Assembly: GCF_000384155.1 (NCBI RefSeq)
Contig: NZ_KB913031.1
Coordinates: 2,660,961-2,724,960, forward strand
From: Methylophilus sp. 42
GTDB lineage: Bacteria; Pseudomonadota; Gammaproteobacteria; Burkholderiales; Methylophilaceae
Length of the DNA stretch: 64,000 bases
Direction: 5' to 3'
A model generated the notes under the pieces. It was not told the origin of the DNA. It worked only from the letters and a program-made list of their open reading frames with translations, and made no database searches. Position 1 is the first letter of the stretch, and each line of letters opens with the position of its first letter. Position numbers and translations under genes: made by a program. This document shows, piece by piece, positions 5,785-26,310 of this stretch.

Positions 5785-8391
5785 CTAGCCGTTAAGGCTC
5801 TTACTCACCACCTCAAACACGTCACCAGACAAGCTAGGCGTGGCCAATACAGCTTCCAGCGCCGCTTTCATCTGCGCTTGCAATGCAGGTGTGTAGCGCT
5901 TCCACTCGCGCAATGGTGTCACCATGCGCGCGGCAATTTGCGGGTTAATCGTGTTGAGCTCGATAATCGCATCACGCAGGAAAGCATAACCTTTGCCGCT
6001 AGGGTCATGGAACTTGACCGGGTTATTAATCGCAAACGCGGTATACAGTGAGCGTACGCGATTCGGATTCTTGATATTAAAATCCGGGTGCTTGCGCAAC
6101 ATGGCCAGGTCATCAAAAATCGCCTCGCGATTAGCCAAGGCTTGCAATGAAAACCACTTATCCACCACCAGCGGATAAGCTTCAAATTCCTGGTAGAAAT
6201 CCGAGAATGCTTCCGCGCGTTGCGGCTGCGTGCTGTCGCTCAGGCAAGCCAGTGCGGCAACGCGGTCAGTCATATTATCAGCGGCGTCATAGTGCGCCTT
6301 GGCACGTGCAGCGCAGCCGGTGCCGTTGGTTACGGTGAGAATCTCCAGCACAGCACTTTGCAAGGCGCGGCGGCCCATGGCTTCAGGCGTTACCGAGAAT
6401 GTGCCGGGGTTGCTGTTCGCGTCGTATAGCGCCGCTAACGTATCTTTATGGGCACGTTTAATCTGCGTCAGGATACTGGTGCGCGCCGCATCAATCGCCG
6501 CCGGGTCGACCACGGGCAGATACTGCCCAATCACGCCTATCATCGGCAAACTCAACGCACGTGCCAGCAAGGCTTTATCACCCTGCCCATTTAAACCTTG
6601 CTCAATCAAGCGGCCAAAATCAGCGACAAACTGGGCAATATCCGCTTGCGGGTCTGCCATCACGCGCTGAATAGTGCGCAAAGCCAATGTTTGGCCCGCC
6701 TCCCATTTGTTAAAGCCGTCAGTGTCATGCACTTGCAGCAAGCGCAGGTCATCATCACTTAAATCCGTTTCCAGTTTCACCGGCGCCGAGAAGCCGCGCA
6801 AAATGGAAGGCACTGGCCTGGCGGCAATCCCAGCGAAAGTGAATGATTGTTCACGTGCCGTCATTTCCAGCACTTGTGTCGACAGAATCTCTTTACCCGT
6901 GGCATCCAGCAAGCCAACCGCAATTGGGATATGCAAGGGCTGTTTATCACTCTGCCCTGGGGTATCCAGCTGAGATTGTTTAAACGTCAGCGTATAGGTC
7001 TTATGCGCTGCATCGTAATGGCTGCTGGCTTGTAGTGTTGGCGTGCCAGCCTGTTTATACCAGCGGAAGAACTGCGATAAATCGCGACCAGACGCATCCG
7101 CCATACACTGCACAAAATCATCACAGGTCACGGCGTGACCGTCATAGCGGTCAAAATACAAATCCGTCGCTTTGCGGAACGTCTCCGCGCCCAGCAAAGT
7201 ATGCTGCATGCGAATCAGCTCAGCGCCTTTTTCATAAATGGTTTTAGTGTAAAAGTTGCTGATTTCAATAAACTGGTCCGGCTGTACCGAATGCGCCAAC
7301 GGGCTGCCATCTTCAGCGAACTGCAAGCGACGCAAACCGTTCACATCGTCAATGCGTTGTACCGCACGCGAGTTCATATCCGCGCTGAATTCCTGGTCGC
7401 GGAACACAGTAAAACCTTCTTTGAGCGACAGCTGAAACCAGTCACGGCAAGTCACGCGGTTACCGGTCCAGTTGTGGAAATACTCGTGACCAATCACGCC
7501 TTCCACACTCATAAAATCGCTGTCGGTCGCGGTTTCCTGATGCGCCAGCACCAGCGCCGTATTGAAAATATTGAGCGAGGTGTTTTCCATCGCGCCCATA
7601 TTAAAATCGCTTACCGCGACAATATTGAACAAGTCGAGCTGATACTCGCGACCATATACTTCCTCATCCCACTTCATCGATTTTTTCAGCGATTCCATCG
7701 CATGGTCGCACTGCTTTTCATCGCCTGCCCGCACATAAATATGCAAATCCACCTTACGGCCAGACATAGTTGTAAACGTATCTGCCACGCGCTCCAAATC
7801 GCCTGCCACCAATGCAAACAAATAACAAGGTTTAGGGAATGGGTCATGCCAGACGAGGAAATGACGGCCATCCGCCAAACCGCCCTCCTCCTGCAAATTA
7901 CCGTTTGAGAGCAACACCGGATACAACTTGGCATCCGCCTCAATGCGCACGGTGAACACACTCAACACATCAGGGCGATCTTGATAGTACGTAATCCGCC
8001 GGAAGCCTTCCGCCTCGCACTGCGTGCAATAGTTGCCCTGTGATTGATACAAGCCTTCCAGCGCCGTATTCGCCGCCGGGTCAATCTCGCCGACGATGGT
8101 TAACGTGAATTCATTACCTGGATTCACTATCGTCATTTGCCCATCAGCCACGGTGTAACCATCAAATGGCTGACCATTAATCGAAACAGAAACGATTGTT
8201 TGGTCATCACCATCCAACACCAGATCATTTGAAACACCCGCCGAATTTTTCACATACTTCACTTCAGACGTGACGATGGTTTTACCTGGCAGAAGGTTAA
8301 AACTCAAATTCACCTGCGCAGCGTTATACGGCGCAGGCGTGTAGTCTTTGAGGTAAATGGTTTTTGGTGCAACAGCGTTTTCGGTTCGCAT
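5785..8391 (-). CDS. pepN: Aminopeptidase N (M1 family alanyl aminopeptidase)
   Basis: Cytoplasmic zinc aminopeptidase that removes N-terminal residues from peptides in the last stages of protein turnover. The 868 residues match E. coli PepN. The N-terminal beta-sandwich is followed by a catalytic domain with the substrate-anchoring GAMEN motif (about residue 265) and the zinc site HEYFHNWTGNR (about 300-310, HExxH), with the third ligand Glu in LKEGFTVFRDQEF about 20 residues later. The C-terminal helical bowl domain is present. Only a weak AGG precedes the ATG. It is monocistronic with its own terminator. Confidence 0.96.
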   Translation of the reverse strand: MRTENAVAPKTIYLKDYTPAPYNAAQVNLSFNLLPGKTIVTSEVKYVKNSAGVSNDLVLDGDDQTIVSVSINGQPFDGYTVADGQMTIVNPGNEFTLTIVGEIDPAANTALEGLYQSQGNYCTQCEAEGFRRITYYQDRPDVLSVFTVRIEADAKLYPVLLSNGNLQEEGGLADGRHFLVWHDPFPKPCYLFALVAGDLERVADTFTTMSGRKVDLHIYVRAGDEKQCDHAMESLKKSMKWDEEVYGREYQLDLFNIVAVSDFNMGAMENTSLNIFNTALVLAHQETATDSDFMSVEGVIGHEYFHNWTGNRVTCRDWFQLSLKEGFTVFRDQEFSADMNSRAVQRIDDVNGLRRLQFAEDGSPLAHSVQPDQFIEISNFYTKTIYEKGAELIRMQHTLLGAETFRKATDLYFDRYDGHAVTCDDFVQCMADASGRDLSQFFRWYKQAGTPTLQASSHYDAAHKTYTLTFKQSQLDTPGQSDKQPLHIPIAVGLLDATGKEILSTQVLEMTAREQSFTFAGIAARPVPSILRGFSAPVKLETDLSDDDLRLLQVHDTDGFNKWEAGQTLALRTIQRVMADPQADIAQFVADFGRLIEQGLNGQGDKALLARALSLPMIGVIGQYLPVVDPAAIDAARTSILTQIKRAHKDTLAALYDANSNPGTFSVTPEAMGRRALQSAVLEILTVTNGTGCAARAKAHYDAADNMTDRVAALACLSDSTQPQRAEAFSDFYQEFEAYPLVVDKWFSLQALANREAIFDDLAMLRKHPDFNIKNPNRVRSLYTAFAINNPVKFHDPSGKGYAFLRDAIIELNTINPQIAARMVTPLREWKRYTPALQAQMKAALEAVLATPSLSGDVFEVVSKSLNG

Positions 8392-8535
8392 TTGGATAAC
8401 CTGAGAATAGGAAATATAAAGGATTATATTTGAGAGTTGGCTCAGGCCAATTGGTTTAATGCAATTGCATGCAAATGTTGCTACGAAATATCATGAATCG
8501 GGCAGCAGCTGCCCAGTTTGCCTAGGGCAACGCTG

Positions 8536-8802
8536 CTATTTGGTAATTTCAATCTCATCCACAATGCCATCGTTCACGACAAATTCAGACACCGGTTGGC
8601 CGCTCTTATAAAGCAACGCCGCATTTGCTTCAGTTGCTGGCACGGTGATGCGGGAGTTATTGATCATAAAAACGGTAAAGTACTTGTTAGCGTTTTTGTC
8701 GAAATGCTCCCATACCGAAAATACATCTTCCAGATACAGACCAACAATACTCAAGCCATCCAGCGTTAAATCAGTTTTATTCAGATTATTCATTACACTC
8801 AC
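8536..8802 (-). CDS. Hypothetical small protein (88 aa)
   Basis: I do not recognise this protein. It is short, acidic and soluble, with a mixed alpha/beta pattern and no membrane segment or cysteine. The frame opens with GTG at 8802; an in-frame ATG at 8793 is equally plausible, and neither has a strong Shine-Dalgarno. It lies 40 bp downstream of the 59-residue membrane-protein gene on the same strand, so the two may be co-transcribed. Two tandem small hairpins just after its stop (8500-8530) could end the transcript but lack a T-run. Confidence 0.5.
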   Translation of the reverse strand: MSVMNNLNKTDLTLDGLSIVGLYLEDVFSVWEHFDKNANKYFTVFMINNSRITVPATEANAALLYKSGQPVSEFVVNDGIVDEIEITK

Positions 8803-8842
8803 TTCAGAAACTTGATTTGGTGACAGTAAAGCCGCCCCCCTT

Positions 8843-9022
8843 TTAGCTACGGGAGATATCCTTAGTTCTTGTATGTGACACAGCCTTTAATATGCCTATA
8901 CCGGTGAGTATCACTGAAGCAATCACGATATACAAATGCGGCACACCCGCTTCAACTAGCGCCCATGCAATCCCGCCAATCAGAATAGCGAACCCGATAA
9001 GATACAGAACGAACGATGACAT
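8843..9022 (-). CDS. 59-residue two-helix membrane protein
   Basis: Read directly from the minus strand, the frame from ATG at 9022 gives 59 residues beginning MSSFVLYLIGFAILIGG. The ribosome-binding site is near-perfect (GAGGAGG, 6 nt before the ATG). Two hydrophobic segments (about residues 4-22 and 28-47) are joined by a short turn containing EAGVP, and the C-terminal tail is basic (KAVSHTRTK), suggesting a hairpin in the inner membrane with the tail in the cytoplasm. The function is unknown. The strong ribosome-binding site, the balanced codon use and the transmembrane pattern make a chance ORF unlikely. It may form an operon with the gene at 8536-8802. Confidence 0.7.
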   Translation of the reverse strand: MSSFVLYLIGFAILIGGIAWALVEAGVPHLYIVIASVILTGIGILKAVSHTRTKDISRS

Positions 9023-9266
9023 ACAGCCTCCTCATTTAATTTAAATTTTTAGTAGTTAAATGATAGTTTCTGAGAAAGATAGTGGTATCAGACAGTTGCT
9101 GAAAAGTGTGTAGGAAAAGTGGAAATCCATGCAGAATAGCTAGTCAGTTTGAAATCATTTTTTCCCAAATTAATCTTTACTTTTAAAAGTGTTAGATTCG
9201 CAACTAAAATTACATCGTATCAAAGTGCTTCCTCATAACAATTACTCAAGAAAAATATAGCATCTC

Positions 9267-11210
9267 ATGTCTAATAAAACTTTCGGAACTGAGTTAACAC
9301 CAATATCCCAAATATTTCAGGATAGATTATTTACTATTCCAGATTATCAACGTGGATATGCTTGGGAAAAAAAACAAATAGATGAGTTACTAAAGGATAT
9401 TGACCATTTACTCAACGATGATGAAGCGCTACGTCACTATACTGGCACATTAGTATTAAACAGAAATATAAATGCGCAAAATGAAGAATACTATATTGTA
9501 GATGGACAGCAACGCCTCACGACTCTGATTATTTTCATCAAGGTATTGAGTGACCAACTGCAAGAGGAAACAGAACGTAATGAGCTGCATGAATTGTATT
9601 TAAGACGCGGTTCTATAGGAAATCAAAGACCTGTATTACGTCTTAACTCAGACACTTATCGTTTCTTTGAAAAGGTAATAATTGGTAATGAAACTATAAA
9701 TAGTAATCCGCCCACTTTAGAAGCTCATAACCGCCTGTTCGATGTGCAAAAACTCATACGCAAATGGCTCTTGGATAAAATAAGTTCAGGGATAAGCGTC
9801 GCAGTTATTCGAAATATCCTTGAGAACAAACTAGGGTTTCTAATTTACGCACCAAAGCAAGATGCCGAAACTGGAATAATGTTTGAGGTAATTAACAATA
9901 GAGGAAAACCTCTTAGTGAATTAGAGAAAGTAAAAAATTACCTTATTTATTGCAGTGTAAAACTCTCAGCGGCGGTATTACGTTCAGACATTGATACATC
10001 TTGGTCAAATATTCTACGCATGCTGAATACAGCAGGTAAAACCACCCCGTCTGATGAAGGGGGCTTTTTACGGTATTGCGTAACAGTTCACTTTAGATTG
10101 AATAAAACAGATAGCCAATATGGATACGAAGAGCTAAAAAAGCGTATAAATATCGATAAGGCAATGATAGATCAGGCGTTTAAAGATGAAGCTGTCAAAA
10201 AAATAGCAGATTTCGTTACCTTTTTAGACACTGCTGCGCTATGGTATTCACGTTTATATGGCCAACAACATAAAGATCTAGATATTCGCCTTTCAGCGAT
10301 ATTGAACCAAATTCGAGCTCAAGAACAACACGCTTCCATCATGCCTCTGTTTTTGGCTTTAGTAATTAATCTACAGCAAATAGACCGTTTGATTCAATTA
10401 TTAATGCTTCTAGAAATACTTAATTTCAGAGTCTACATGACGAGAAACATGACTGCTCGCAATGATACTGGTCAAGGTGACCTATACTCCTATGCCTCTA
10501 AATACTACCACTCTCAACTCCTAGACAACTATGCTGAGGAATTTCCCAGCTTGCCTTTAAATCAAGAAAACGCACTGGAGTCCTTATTAGTAAAGTTTGT
10601 ATTATGGTACTCGTCTGATGAAAGGTTTAAGAACTCGTTTACTTTAGAACATGATAGTCCAGACGACTTCTATCGGTGGGGAGGATTACGTTATTTTTTA
10701 ATGACGTATGAAGCCACCCTTCAACCAAATAAAACAATCCAAATAGACAAAATCTTACTATCAAGAAAAGATGGAAAGTCAGCTGATTACTTATCTGTTG
10801 AACACTTATGGGCTCTTGAAAATAGAAATCAAATTGGAGAAAACACGCGCAAGGTTGATAGGTTTGAAAAAAGAAGACTTGGAAACTTTGTTCTTCTCGA
10901 ATTAAGGTTAAATATACAAGGATACAAAGACAATTTAGAGCACAAACTGAAAAAATATTTAGAAGGCTTGGATAATGAGCCTGCAACAGATCTTGAGCAG
11001 GTACGAAGGATGGCGAGAGATGCGAAGAAAATATTTAGCAAATTTGAGAATAAAACAAAAAGTAAAAACTACTATTTAAGTCTTTACAGAGAGTTAAACA
11101 AACTTCAAGAGAATCATTATATTAATTTTGCAGAAAATCGCTGGTCTATAAAGAAGTTTCTTAATTACAAAGAGCATAAAAAAGCTCTATTAGATGAAAA
11201 CGAGGGATAG
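9267..11210 (+). CDS. DUF262/DUF1524 protein, candidate GmrSD/SspE-like defence nuclease
   Basis: A 647-residue protein with the architecture of GmrSD-type IV restriction enzymes and related phage-defence proteins. The N-terminal DUF262 has FTIPDYQRGYAW (22-33) and the ParB-like DGQQR nucleotide motif (79-83), then the conserved NNRGKPLSELEKVKNYL (about 207-225). The C-terminal part resembles DUF1524, an HNH-like nuclease: VEHLWA (about 511-516) keeps the motif His, followed by RRLGNFVLLE (about 535-545). The usual HxxP proline is Ala here, and the usual HRLGN is RRLGN, so catalysis needs testing. Base composition is clearly AT-richer than all neighbours, suggesting acquisition. It stands alone, with no restriction-modification, Dnd or Ssp partner, and its stop abuts the stop of yjdM with no gap. 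Cleavage of modified phage DNA is inference from the family. Confidence 0.85.
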   Translation: MSNKTFGTELTPISQIFQDRLFTIPDYQRGYAWEKKQIDELLKDIDHLLNDDEALRHYTGTLVLNRNINAQNEEYYIVDGQQRLTTLIIFIKVLSDQLQEETERNELHELYLRRGSIGNQRPVLRLNSDTYRFFEKVIIGNETINSNPPTLEAHNRLFDVQKLIRKWLLDKISSGISVAVIRNILENKLGFLIYAPKQDAETGIMFEVINNRGKPLSELEKVKNYLIYCSVKLSAAVLRSDIDTSWSNILRMLNTAGKTTPSDEGGFLRYCVTVHFRLNKTDSQYGYEELKKRINIDKAMIDQAFKDEAVKKIADFVTFLDTAALWYSRLYGQQHKDLDIRLSAILNQIRAQEQHASIMPLFLALVINLQQIDRLIQLLMLLEILNFRVYMTRNMTARNDTGQGDLYSYASKYYHSQLLDNYAEEFPSLPLNQENALESLLVKFVLWYSSDERFKNSFTLEHDSPDDFYRWGGLRYFLMTYEATLQPNKTIQIDKILLSRKDGKSADYLSVEHLWALENRNQIGENTRKVDRFEKRRLGNFVLLELRLNIQGYKDNLEHKLKKYLEGLDNEPATDLEQVRRMARDAKKIFSKFENKTKSKNYYLSLYRELNKLQENHYINFAENRWSIKKFLNYKEHKKALLDENEG

Positions 11211-11549
11211 TTAAGCTTTCTTCACGAACGTTGACTTCAATTTCATCGCGCCAAACCCATCAATCTTGCAGTCGATATCATGGTCACCATCGACCAAGCG
11301 GATGTTTTTGACTTTAGTACCGACCTTCACCACTGATGAAGAGCCTTTGACTTTAAGGTCTTTGATCACAGTAATCGTATCGCCATCTTGCAGCACGTTG
11401 CCGTTGGCATCACGCACAACTTTAACCTCGTCTGAATCTGTTGCTGCAACCTTGCTCCATTCATTTGCGCATTCCGGGCAGATGTAGTTATCACCGTCTT
11501 CGTAGGTGTATTCGGATTGGCATTGTGGGCAGGCTGGTAATGTAGACAT
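11211..11549 (-). CDS. yjdM: YjdM/PhnA-family zinc-ribbon protein
   Basis: A 112-residue protein of the PhnA/YjdM family. The N-terminal zinc ribbon has C7-x2-C10 and C24-x2-C27, and the C-terminal SH3-like beta domain (about 40-112) includes the family signature [20 protein letters not shown]. Despite the old name 'alkylphosphonate uptake protein', the family does not have an established phosphonate role. It is convergent with the DUF262 gene, whose stop codon is immediately adjacent; no terminator lies between them. Confidence 0.92.
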
Positions 11550-11653
11550 ACGGACTTTCTTGGTGCAAACAATAAAACCATATATTTTACAGGGTTATTA
11601 TTGAATACCCTAGTTCGCTTGTCGCGCAAAGCAATTGACTAACGACAGGCGTA

Positions 11654-11684
11654 AAAAAACCGCTTCACGAGGAAGCGGTTTTTT
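11654..11684 (-). terminator. Terminator of tkt
   Basis: An inverted repeat AAAAAACCGCTTC / GAAGCGGTTTTTT with a 5-nt loop lies 19 bp beyond the tkt stop; on the minus strand the stem runs into a T-tract. It could also act on the plus strand. Confidence 0.9.
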
Positions 11685-11702
11685 ATCGGTTAAGCTGTCT
11701 GA

Positions 11703-13685
11703 TTACAGAACAGATTTAACAGTTGCTACAACATTCTCAACTGTGAAGCCGAAGTGTTTTAACAGCACGCCGCCTGGAGCAGACTCACCGAATGTGTCGA
11801 TACCGACAACAGCACCTTCCAAACCAACATACTTACGCCAGAAGTCTGGGTGAGCAGCTTCAACAGCCACGCGTTTAACGCCTGGTGTCAATACGCTGTC
11901 TTTGTAAGCTTGGTCTTGGCGGTCGAATACGTTGGTGGATGGCATTGAAACCACACGCACTTTAGTACCCGCTGCGTTCAACTCGGCAGCTGCTTGAATA
12001 GCCAGATCCAACTCGGAACCGTTAGCTATGATGATAACTTGTGCGCCAGCCACGTCAGAGAACACGTAGCCACCTTTACGGATCAAGTCGAAGTCTTTGC
12101 TGTCGTGCTTGATACCTGGCACAGCTTGACGGCTCAATACCAAGCTGGTTGGGCCTTCAGTACGCTCTACTGCAGCAACCCATGCAACGGTTGTTTCTGT
12201 AGAGTCAGCTGGACGCCATACATCCATACGAGGAATCAGACGCAAGCCAGAAGTGTTTTCAACTGGTTGGTGTGTAGGACCATCTTCACCTTGACCGATA
12301 GAGTCATGGGTCAGTACGTAAACCACACGTTGATGCATCAACGCAGACATACGCATGCCGTTTTTCATGTAGTCAGAGAACATGTGGAAAGTACCGCCGT
12401 ATGGCAACAAGCCACCGTGCAATGCCATACCGTTCATGATGGCAGCCATACCGAACTCACGTACACCGTAAGAGATGTAGTTGCCTGGCTCTTTACCACT
12501 CACGTGTTTGAACTCTTTAGCTGCTGTCAGGTTTGAACCTGTCAAGTCAGCTGAACCGCCCAGGAATTCTGGCAAGATTGGCGCCAAAGCAGTAATTGCT
12601 TTTTGTGAAGCTTGACGAGTAGCCAATTTCTCAGCTTTTTCGTTAGTTTCGGCAATGATTGCGTCAGTCAATGCTTTCCAGTTAGCTGGCAATTCACCTG
12701 CCATACGGCGTTTGAATTCTGCAGCTTCTGCTGGGAATGCTTTTTCGTAAGCAGCGAACTTGTCGTTCCATGCAGACTCACGTGCAGCACCTTTGGCTTT
12801 TTGATCCCAGCCAGCGTATACGTCAGCAGGAATTACGAATGGCTCATGTGGCCAGCCGATTTCAGCACGGGTTGCAGCAACTTCTGCGTCGCCCAGTGCG
12901 GAACCGTGACAGTCGTGTGAACCGGATTTGTTTGGAGAACCTTTACCGATGATGGTTTTGCAGCAGATCAGTGATGGTTTGTCAGTCACTGATTTAGCTT
13001 CGTCAACGGCTTTTTGAATCGCAGCCTGGTCGTGACCATCTACTGAAACAACGTGCCAGCCGTATGCTTTGAAGCGGCCTGCGGTGTCGTCTGTGTACCA
13101 GCCTTCGATGTGGCCGTCGATAGAAATACCGTTGTCATCCCAGAAAGCAACCAATTTGCCCAGGCCCCATGTACCAGCCAAAGCACAAGCTTCGTGAGAA
13201 ACGCCTTCCATCATACAACCGTCGCCCAGGAACACGTATGTGTAGTGGTCAACGATGTCGTGGCCTGGCTTGTTGAACTGGCTAGCCAGCAATTTTTCAG
13301 CCATCGCGAAACCAACGCCGTTAGCGATACCTTGGCCCAATGGACCAGTAGTGGTTTCTACGCCTGGTGCGTAGCTAAACTCAGGGTGACCAGCACACTT
13401 GGAGTGCAATTGACGGAAAGTTTTGATGTCGTCGATAGATACATCGTAACCTGTCAGGTGCAGCAAGGAGTAAATCAGCATAGAGCCATGGCCGTTAGAC
13501 AACACGAAGCGGTCACGGTTAGCCCATTGTGGGTTAGTTGGGTTGTGGCTGAGGTTGTGGTTCCACACTACTTCAGCAATTTCAGCCATGCCCATAGGTG
13601 CGCCTGGGTGACCGGAATTTGCTTTTTGTACAGCGTCCATGCTCAGAGCACGGATGGCGTTGCACAAGTCGACACGAGTTGCCAT
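11703..13685 (-). CDS. tkt: Transketolase
   Basis: ThDP enzyme that moves two-carbon units between sugar phosphates. In a ribulose-monophosphate-cycle methylotroph it would help regenerate the formaldehyde acceptor (inference). At 660 residues it has the expected length. The N-terminal ThDP domain has SGHPGAPMG and the [13 protein letters not shown] motif, the middle pyrimidine-binding domain contains [13 protein letters not shown], and a C-terminal domain follows. The start at 13685 (MATRVD) was chosen over an upstream ATG because AGGGAGA precedes it at ideal spacing. It is monocistronic, and its codon use looks strongly biased, as in a highly expressed gene. Confidence 0.97.
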
Positions 13686-23645: not shown

Positions 23646-23671
23646 ATGACGGCTATTGCCGTCATTTTTTT
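23646..23671 (+). terminator. Terminator of cfa
   Basis: A perfect 8-bp stem ATGACGGC / GCCGTCAT with a TATT loop is followed by seven T's. Confidence 0.9.
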
Positions 23672-23731: not shown

Positions 23732-23777
23732 TTGCAATAAAAACCATTTTTAATTATTATTTTGCATAATCATTATG
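23732..23777 (+). promoter_or_regulatory. Promoter of the XRE-ArgA gene with a 13-bp palindrome at the start site
   Basis: TTGCAA (23732-23737), a 17-bp spacer and TATTAT (23755-23760) predict a transcript beginning near 23767. The perfect palindrome CATAATCATTATG (23765-23777) lies on that start and ends 12 nt before the ATG, the classic position for a repressor. It resembles half of a Fur box too, but an obvious candidate ligand is the XRE domain encoded immediately downstream. Confidence 0.6.
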
Positions 23778-23789
23778 AATAAATAACAA

Positions 23790-25358
23790 ATGCTCGGATC
23801 AAACATCAGAGATTTGCGTAAATCGCAAAATTTAACCTTACAGCAACTGGCTTCGCGCATGGGCACAGACGCAAGTAATTTATCACGCATTGAACGTGGC
23901 GAAATTGGTATTTCAGAAGTTCTGCTACGCGCAGCGGCACAGGCATTGAACACCACCCCTGGCCGCCTGTATGACGCCAACCTGACACCCGTCTCACTGA
24001 CCAACACGCCACCGGCCATTCTTTCCAGTGCCAATAGCAAAGACTTTGTGCACTGGTTCCGTTCGGCGGCGCCGTATATCCACGCCTTTGGCGGCAGCAC
24101 GTTTGTGATTGCCTTTGGTGGCGAAGTGGTCAGCGAGCAGCAATTTGTCGCACTCTCACATGACCTTAACCTGTTAGCCAGCCTGGAAGTGAGACTGGTG
24201 CTGGTGCATGGCGCCCGACCACAAATTGAACAGCGCCTCAAGCGAGACAACCTGACGCCAAAATTGCACAACGGCCTGCGCATTACTGACGATGCCGCCA
24301 TGGAGGCAGTGAAAGAAGCCAATGGCGCCATCCGCGTCGAAATTGAAGCCTTACTCTCGATGGGCATTGCCAACTCGCCGATGGCGGGCAGTGATATCCG
24401 CGTCGCCAGTGGCAACTTTGTCACGGCAAAACCATTAGGCGTGCGCGACGGCGTAGATTTACAACATACCGGAGAAGTACGCAAGATAGATGCTATTGGC
24501 ATCCAAAAGCGGCTAGATGACGGCGAATTGGTGCTTTTATCCCCCATGGGCTACTCACCCACCGGTGAAACCTTCAACCTGACACTGGAAGATGTGGCGG
24601 TCAGCGCGGCCAGTGCGCTGGATGCGGAAAAACTAATTTTCCTGATGGACTCAGAAGGCGTGCATAACCTGCGCGGCGAACTGTTACGTGAAATGACTTC
24701 GGCCAAAGCCAAAAACCTGCTGCGCAATGTGCAGGAGAGCGATGTGCCTATTCATTACTCGGAAGACGTCAATTACTACCTGCCTGCCGCCGTGCGCGCC
24801 TGCGAGCATGGCGTGACCAGGACGCACCTGATCTCGCGCCATATCGATGGCGCCATTATTCAGGAGCTGTTTACGCGGCAAGGCATAGGCACCATGATTA
24901 CCGAACTGCCGCTGGAAACCATGCGCCAGGCCAATATTGATGATGTCGGCGGCATCCTGATGCTGATTGAACCATTGGAAAACGAAGGTATCCTGGTGCG
25001 GCGCGGGCGCGAACGCATCGAGATGGAAATTAATTATTTCTATGTGATGGAACACGATAACCGCGTAATTGGTTGCGCTGCGCTGTATCCGTTTGCCCAG
25101 GAAAAAATGGTGGAATTTGCCTGCCTGGCGATAGACCCGACCTATCGTGGCGGTGGCCGGGGCGATAAATTGTTTAACTATTGCCAGGAGCAAGCCAGCC
25201 AAAAAGGCTTCAAAAGGTTATTTTGCCTGACCACGCGCACTGAGCACTGGTTTCTGGAGCGCGGCTTTACCGAGCAAAATGTTGACCAATTACCGCACGA
25301 AAAACAAAAACTCTATAATTTTCAAAGAAAATCCAAAGTTTTCATCAAATCGTTATGA
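23790..25358 (+). CDS. argA: N-acetylglutamate synthase fused to an N-terminal XRE helix-turn-helix domain
   Basis: The 522-residue protein joins a DNA-binding domain to the first enzyme of arginine synthesis. Residues about 4-62 are a Cro/C1-type HTH (LTLQQLASRMG, then recognition helix DASNLSRIERGEIG). Residues about 83-345 are the ArgA amino-acid-kinase-like domain (FVHWFRSAAPYIHAFGGSTF, LVLVHGARPQIEQRL), the arginine-sensing part. Residues about 370-515 are the GNAT acetyltransferase domain with the acetyl-CoA loop in DPTYRGGGRGDKLF. Normal ArgA is about 440 residues and begins near residue 83 here, so the HTH is an addition in one continuous frame. No Shine-Dalgarno is visible upstream. 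argB follows 70 bp downstream. The fusion could let the enzyme repress its own gene in response to arginine; that is inference. Confidence 0.9.
   Translation: MLGSNIRDLRKSQNLTLQQLASRMGTDASNLSRIERGEIGISEVLLRAAAQALNTTPGRLYDANLTPVSLTNTPPAILSSANSKDFVHWFRSAAPYIHAFGGSTFVIAFGGEVVSEQQFVALSHDLNLLASLEVRLVLVHGARPQIEQRLKRDNLTPKLHNGLRITDDAAMEAVKEANGAIRVEIEALLSMGIANSPMAGSDIRVASGNFVTAKPLGVRDGVDLQHTGEVRKIDAIGIQKRLDDGELVLLSPMGYSPTGETFNLTLEDVAVSAASALDAEKLIFLMDSEGVHNLRGELLREMTSAKAKNLLRNVQESDVPIHYSEDVNYYLPAAVRACEHGVTRTHLISRHIDGAIIQELFTRQGIGTMITELPLETMRQANIDDVGGILMLIEPLENEGILVRRGRERIEMEINYFYVMEHDNRVIGCAALYPFAQEKMVEFACLAIDPTYRGGGRGDKLFNYCQEQASQKGFKRLFCLTTRTEHWFLERGFTEQNVDQLPHEKQKLYNFQRKSKVFIKSL

Positions 25359-25425: not shown

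Positions 25426-26310
<885 letters not shown>

Follow-up and report, generated by a model that had tools for sequence, protein, structure and literature searches.

Why would an enzyme that opens arginine biosynthesis carry a DNA-binding domain? In the window, the whole 64,000-nt stretch of Methylophilus DNA analysed here, a single uninterrupted frame on the + strand (23790..25358, ATG to TGA) encodes a protein of 522 amino acids in which an XRE/Cro-C1 helix–turn–helix (HTH) precedes a complete N-acetylglutamate synthase (ArgA). A sequence-only reading of this locus had suggested a one-protein feedback circuit, with arginine controlling both the activity of the enzyme and its transcription. The fusion is real and conserved throughout the family (Methylophilaceae), while the feedback circuit itself is something that we infer. 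The follow-up revealed a conserved pair of 15-bp sites overlapping the predicted promoter of the fused argA, and on balance we lean towards viewing HTH-ArgA as an arginine-gated enzyme that represses its own gene.

The existence of the HTH–ArgA fusion as a sequence is certain. The HTH occupies residues 1–62 (23790..23975, +), as delimited by Pfam and by the helices of the AlphaFold2 model, with the recognition helix at residues 28–35 (23871–23894, +); it is matched above the curated cut-offs by both HTH_31 (residues 2–57, E 1.5e-10) and HTH_3 (residues 6–58, E 2.2e-10), the scores being 41.7 bits for HTH_3 (cut-off 27) and 40.8 bits for HTH_31 (cut-off 23). A linker that varies in sequence and length follows (residues 63–84, 23976..24041, +; pLDDT <50 at residues 65–88) and leads directly into the N-terminal helix region of ArgA (residues 85–100, 24042..24089, +), modelled as helices 83–92 and 94–100, in part with low confidence. 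Next come the amino-acid-kinase-like domain (residues 104–349, 24099..24836, +; Pfam AA_kinase, E 7.6e-27), the motif ELFTRQGIGT of the arginine site (residues 359–368, 24864..24893, +) and the GNAT acetyltransferase part (residues 375–522, 24912..25355, +; Pfam and NCBIfam), within which Acetyltransf_1 covers residues 412–482 (E 7.8e-13), both Pfam matches again exceeding their curated cut-offs. Two NCBIfam equivalog models identify the protein as ArgA, NF003641 over residues 81–522 (691.9 bits, cut-off 344) and TIGR01890 over residues 86–522 (580 bits, cut-off 202.85), so that ArgA proper starts at residue 81–86, in agreement with the start near residue 83 given in the sequence-only reading, whose description of one open frame joining an HTH to a complete ArgA was likewise accurate. 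A Pfam search of the protein found neither of the Arg_repressor domains, PF01316 and PF02863. This is the sole argA detected in the 2.97-Mb genome, the next match in the search being the downstream argB (acetylglutamate kinase, NCBIfam argB equivalog; 25429..26310, +), which lies 70 bp 3′ of argA and is possibly co-transcribed with it by read-through.

The enzyme part closely resembles its classical counterpart. Residues 85–519 align over the whole of the N. gonorrhoeae N-acetylglutamate synthase (NAGS; 2R8V/3D2P) with an E value of 3.4e-90, and the ArgA part of the AlphaFold2 model (mean pLDDT 81.9, pTM 0.61, linker disordered) superposes on the arginine-bound chain 3D2P_A with an rmsd of 2.5 over 437 columns, the corresponding value for the native form 2R8V being 10.7. 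The 50 structure matches listed for the whole model comprise NAGS/NAGK-type chains only.

Could translation bypass the HTH by starting near residue 80? The first in-frame ATG codons of the window gene are those of residues 1, 24 and 171, further ones come later, and residue 87 is encoded by GTG. Across 125 family sequences, 79 have no ATG, GTG or TTG between residues 63 and 86 and 46 have one, while GTG at residue 87 is present in 57. Reading of the sequence before Met1 in the window revealed no clear Shine–Dalgarno motif. On this survey of the window and the 125 relatives, internal initiation near residue 80, a possibility voiced along with the original proposal, is unlikely as far as sequence can tell.

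The fusion is a property of the family. A match was obtained in 179 of its 187 genomes and, after follow-up of incomplete matches, the HTH is visible in 177; in 170 of these a single match begins at residue 6 or earlier and joins the HTH to ArgA, and in seven (G006, G013, G028, G047, G056, G153 and G181) the HTH appears as a separate stretch (the counts of 177, 170 and 187 were tallied by hand from the match rows). Among the ten genomes without a visible HTH, eight gave no match, G119 gave a C-terminal fragment only and G184 only argB. The HTH persists, at 40–57% overall identity, even in two genera of reduced genome size, whose single-contig members measure 1.3–1.4 Mb. A frame artefact of a single genome is rejected by the joining of HTH and ArgA across the family, and the alternative that the HTH is not conserved in relatives is disfavoured by the same counts. 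Beyond the family, a search of 399 genomes of the order placed the beginning of every extra-family match, among the matches listed, at residue 50 or later, and a search of 369 genomes of the class gave, among the matches listed, five extra-family matches beginning before residue 50 (G617, G772, G780, G786 and G912), all with internal stop codons; in the four that were read (all but G780), the ArgA frame contains no HTH. The extent of the fusion, which the earlier reading had left to a wider search, is therefore family-wide, with no case outside the family among the matches listed. At 33 loci of HTH-less relatives, no XRE gene of the HTH-ArgA type was found beside argA at E ≤1. The simplest history would be one fusion event in the ancestor of Methylophilaceae. 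We found no description of the fusion in the open-licence PubMed Central literature.

The regions upstream of argA at 129 distinct family loci share a recurring palindrome, usually present twice, which takes the form TTGTA-N5-TACAA in Methylotenera and some reduced genomes and is of a TTGC type in other genera. Scored as the best site pair within 133 bp upstream, with a threshold of 17, the family upstreams average 17.2 as against 14.8 for dinucleotide shuffles (126 loci, three of the 129 rows having been dropped for short flanks), and 83 of the 126 score at least 17. The argA upstreams of 24 HTH-less relatives average 13.9 and none reaches 17, in a control set that is mostly G+C-richer than the family and includes two nearly identical members. 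This bias is answered by controls drawn from the same loci, where 79 of 122 upstreams reach at least 17 but none of the 122 argA–argB gaps and none of the 122 coding stretches does so (seven of the 129 rows dropped for short flanks). A conserved site pair on the promoter of the fused gene, missing from the 24 HTH-less upstreams, supports the one-protein feedback idea, if indirectly.

The arrangement of the two sites is itself conserved. The best pair is spaced 29–31 bp at 74 of the 126 family loci and, with spacings of 28–32 bp allowed, 40 of 45 pairs at Methylotenera-like loci lie exactly 30 bp apart. In those 40 loci the information content per base is 1.46 and 1.47 bits in the two sites, 1.14 between them and 0.33 and 0.27 in the flanks. 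In relatives, site 1 opens with a TTGxAx box that is followed after 17 bp by a TATATT or TATTAT box, and together these constitute a predicted sigma-70-like promoter; site 1 lies over the predicted −35 box and site 2 over the expected transcription start. Since the right half-sites fall outside the promoter, conservation of the promoter alone does not account for them. Some reduced genomes depart from this spacing, having their best two sites 39–42 bp apart or only one clear site, and in one reduced-genome group (L145–L149) the palindromes are 42 bp apart, the second ending just before the argA start codon.

In the window itself, a terminator-like hairpin with a T tail (23646..23665, +; one found in the scan, 0.1 expected in shuffles) ends the upstream gene, which implies that argA has its own promoter region. 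Predicted operator site 1, TTGCAATAAAAACCA (23732..23746, +), lies where relatives have the palindromic site; it has a strong left half, TTGCA, and a weak right half, and overlaps the predicted −35 box (23732–23737). The predicted −10 box, TATTAT (23755..23760, +), begins 17 bp after TTGCAA at a position conserved in relatives, and the two boxes make 9 of 12 matches, which is chance level when taken alone, about one such site being expected in shuffles of the region. In predicted operator site 2, TTGCATAATCATTAT (23762..23776, +), which covers the expected transcription start, the left half lies 30 bp downstream of the left half of site 1. In loci throughout the window's genus, degenerate right halves leave the sites non-palindromic, and the pair scores of 14–16 lie within the range of shuffles. 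What persists is the pattern of the left halves: TTGCA followed by TTG at +30 occurs at 15 of 16 loci of the genus and in 0.2% of mononucleotide shuffles, a count that does not amount to 15 independent observations because the loci are related, and a looser TTGC form is found in none of the 16 argA–argB gaps and in 0.35% of shuffles.

Our proposal is that HTH-ArgA would be an N-acetylglutamate synthase that represses its own gene. The HTH domains would extend from the ArgA ring on flexible linkers and pair up, and the pairs would occupy the two operators, some three helical turns apart at the −35 box and the transcription start, an occupancy that would exclude RNA polymerase. L-arginine, bound at its site in the kinase-like domain, would move the N-terminal helix that is joined to the HTH linker; as a co-repressor it would thus most likely set DNA binding as well as enzyme activity. 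The elements of this scheme differ in strength. That HTH-ArgA binds its own promoter is very probable, given the sites found there; that it represses the gene is probable, in view of the geometry of those sites; and that the predicted binding depends on arginine is a point on which we incline, not strongly, to the affirmative. The protein is presumably an active enzyme, considering the conservation of its substrate and arginine residues. In its broadest form, namely a family-wide feedback through a single chain, in which a transition of the ring would switch catalysis together with the occupancy of tandem operators, and operator and recognition residues would drift jointly in a lineage without ArgR, the proposal is tentative, and we hold it with slightly more doubt than belief.

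The case for arginine comes from the enzyme. In a review that covers N. gonorrhoeae NAGS (ngNAGS), the arginine site is located at the end of the kinase-like domain and includes Lys201 and Glu270, its motif is given as E-(L/I)-(F/M)-(T/S)-X-X-G-X-G-T, which the window protein fits, and arginine is reported to shift the N-terminal helix and to widen the ring (PMC4490483). By alignment count, assuming 20 tag residues, Lys201 and Glu270 correspond to K281 and E359 of HTH-ArgA. Both residues are present in all 125 family sequences and the motif in 123, while the substrate residues R513 and S515 are kept in 124 and 123, respectively; HTH-ArgA thus retains the arginine and substrate residues of the classical enzyme. 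As the HTH linker is joined to the helix that arginine moves, the most parsimonious guess is an arginine switch.

The strongest competitor accepts autorepression but removes arginine from it: the HTH would bind the promoter according to protein level and thereby steady the amount of enzyme, with arginine acting on activity only. All of the operator evidence fits this account equally well, and the linker, which ranges from 5 to 50 residues across the family, argues against a rigid coupling of helix and HTH and makes tight communication between ring and HTH doubtful. Against it stand, as indirect arguments, the position of the HTH, adjoining the very helix that arginine displaces in ngNAGS (PMC4490483), and the conservation of the arginine site throughout the family, and we regard arginine-independent autorepression as unlikely, if a serious contender.

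Arginine-gated autorepression by HTH-ArgA would operate where the usual regulator seems to be missing. The ArgR domain PF02863 was detected in none of 250 genomes of the order by a search that was positive in 8 of 14 control genomes, and PF01316 exceeded its cut-off in none of the 187 family genomes, with two weak partial matches. Among proteobacterial classes, ArgR is reported to be confined to the gammaproteobacteria (PMC5343134). ArgJ is present in all seven family genomes searched. With this other source of N-acetylglutamate at hand, control of argA by itself may bring little benefit, and ArgA may mainly top up the acetyl cycle.

A second possibility is that the HTH responds to a different ligand (acetyl-CoA, glutamate, N-acetylglutamate or a partner protein), acts as an activator, or serves further target genes. 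The NAGS ring also binds acetyl-CoA and glutamate, and the regulon scans covered selected genomes, both of which give this view some ground. These scans point to argA itself. The strict palindrome was found 19 times in six Methylotenera genomes, compared with 9 times for the reversed control; argA accounts for 10 of the 19, a single recurring place in coding sequence for 5 and other places for 4, and two strict sites 30 bp apart are seen at argA alone, in four of these genomes. The recurring place is the metX–metW junction (genes read by eye), where ATGTAAATATTACAA lies in coding sequence in five of the six genomes (L212, L207, L202, L209 and L211, near position 1501), and in G108 and G114 it is followed 42 bp later by another, similar site; we take this palindrome to be a matter of chance. 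With one mismatch allowed, G108 yields 39 sites (reversed control 19), two of which are the argA pair, and inspection by eye of all 39 contexts recognised no arginine gene behind the others; G114 and G158 yield 64 and 48 sites, respectively, with contexts viewed for some. In the genome of the window, the half-site pair pattern gives 18 matches at ≤1 mismatch (reversed control 2), the exact pair occurs once, at argA, and no arginine gene was recognised by eye behind the other 17. Upstream of argJ, seven loci contain no site with ≤1 mismatch, the single such site, in the L283 locus, lying far downstream. Within the genomes scanned, this looks like local autoregulation of argA. With strict double sites confined to argA in the six Methylotenera genomes, and with a repressor-like geometry in which the sites overlap the −35 box and the transcription start expected there, a different ligand, mode or set of targets appears improbable.

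It is more improbable still that some other regulator owns the conserved sites and that the HTH of HTH-ArgA does not read them. Further XRE proteins do exist in these genomes, as illustrated by a weak HTH match elsewhere in G047, but the sites are located at the gene that encodes the HTH, are absent from the 24 HTH-less argA upstreams, and seem to covary with a residue of the HTH. In the 90 of 125 sequences that come from outside the window's genus and whose loci have a pair score of at least 16, Gln39 went with a C-type operator in 25 of 25 cases and other residues with a T-type operator in 60 of 65. On the tree of the enzyme part, Gln39 changes four times and the operator type five times; three independent pairs agree in 2.7 cases on average, with none against (p 0.25), which makes a joint change of residue 39 and the operator base suggestive. 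The window protein has Ile at this position.

How well conserved is the HTH domain itself? In 125 sequences the mean consensus frequency is 0.83 over residues 27–41 (the recognition helix and the following turn) and 0.67 over residues 4–62, as compared with 0.81 and 0.75 in the enzyme parts and 0.31 in the linker. A comparison of 16 close relatives puts dN/dS at 0.031 in the HTH, as against 0.155 in the linker and 0.023 and 0.047 in the two enzyme domains, and in a wider Methylotenera set it is 0.088 for the HTH and 0.027 and 0.041 for the enzyme, all of these ratios being rough because synonymous sites are near saturation. AlphaFold2 places HTH helices at residues 2–12, 17–24, 28–35 and 43–52, with block pLDDT values of 77–90 over residues 1–60, and the sequence relatives of the domain include C.AhdI and PezA. 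That the HTH is a relic, or a structural extension of the N terminus that does not bind DNA, is scarcely credible, for even if fusions can start out neutral, this HTH has a low (if rough) dN/dS, is kept in reduced genomes and is conserved in its recognition region.

Enzymes that double as transcriptional repressors are exemplified by PutA, NadR and BirA, and HTH-ArgA would likewise combine a pathway enzyme and a repressor in one protein. These three have other DNA-binding folds or enzymes, and to our knowledge none is an N-acetylglutamate synthase. In the open-licence literature, the nearest described architecture, by analogy, appears to be that of BzdR: like BoxR, it has an N-terminal XRE domain, a linker and a former enzyme domain serving as effector (PMC3602430), and a model of anaerobic-benzoate regulators is indeed a weak match of the HTH of HTH-ArgA. 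The C-terminal domain of BzdR/BoxR is shikimate-kinase-like, whereas that of HTH-ArgA is ArgA; and BzdR is reported to have no detectable enzyme activity and to act on the promoter of a catabolic pathway, where benzoyl-CoA is the inducer (PMC3602430), whereas HTH-ArgA keeps its substrate and arginine residues and its target is seemingly its own gene. Classical NAGS is described as consisting of two domains (PMC4490483), to which HTH-ArgA adds the XRE domain, the linker and the operator pair. With ArgR it would share arginine-dependent repression of arginine synthesis, the role we presume for it; ArgR is an unrelated protein and controls many genes (PMC5343134), unlike HTH-ArgA with its seemingly single target.

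If our reading is true, a feedback-inhibited biosynthetic enzyme, apparently still active, represses its own gene, where BzdR has lost its activity. HTH-ArgA would then be a candidate for transcriptional control by arginine in an order in which ArgR was not found (250 genomes), and streamlined methylotrophs may in this manner keep regulation with few regulators. With a DNA target, with operators and recognition residues that can be compared from genus to genus, and with hosts that grow in culture, the family makes the control of transcription by an allosteric enzyme ring testable.

Elsewhere in the window, the 647-aa protein encoded at 9267–11210 (+) has a GmrSD_N (DUF262-type) domain and matches the PADLOC models HEC-06 and Orf5. 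The gene sits in a patch of low G+C content (0.398 for 8001–12000, about 0.52 around it) and, from this composition and the PADLOC matches, may be an acquired anti-phage defence gene.
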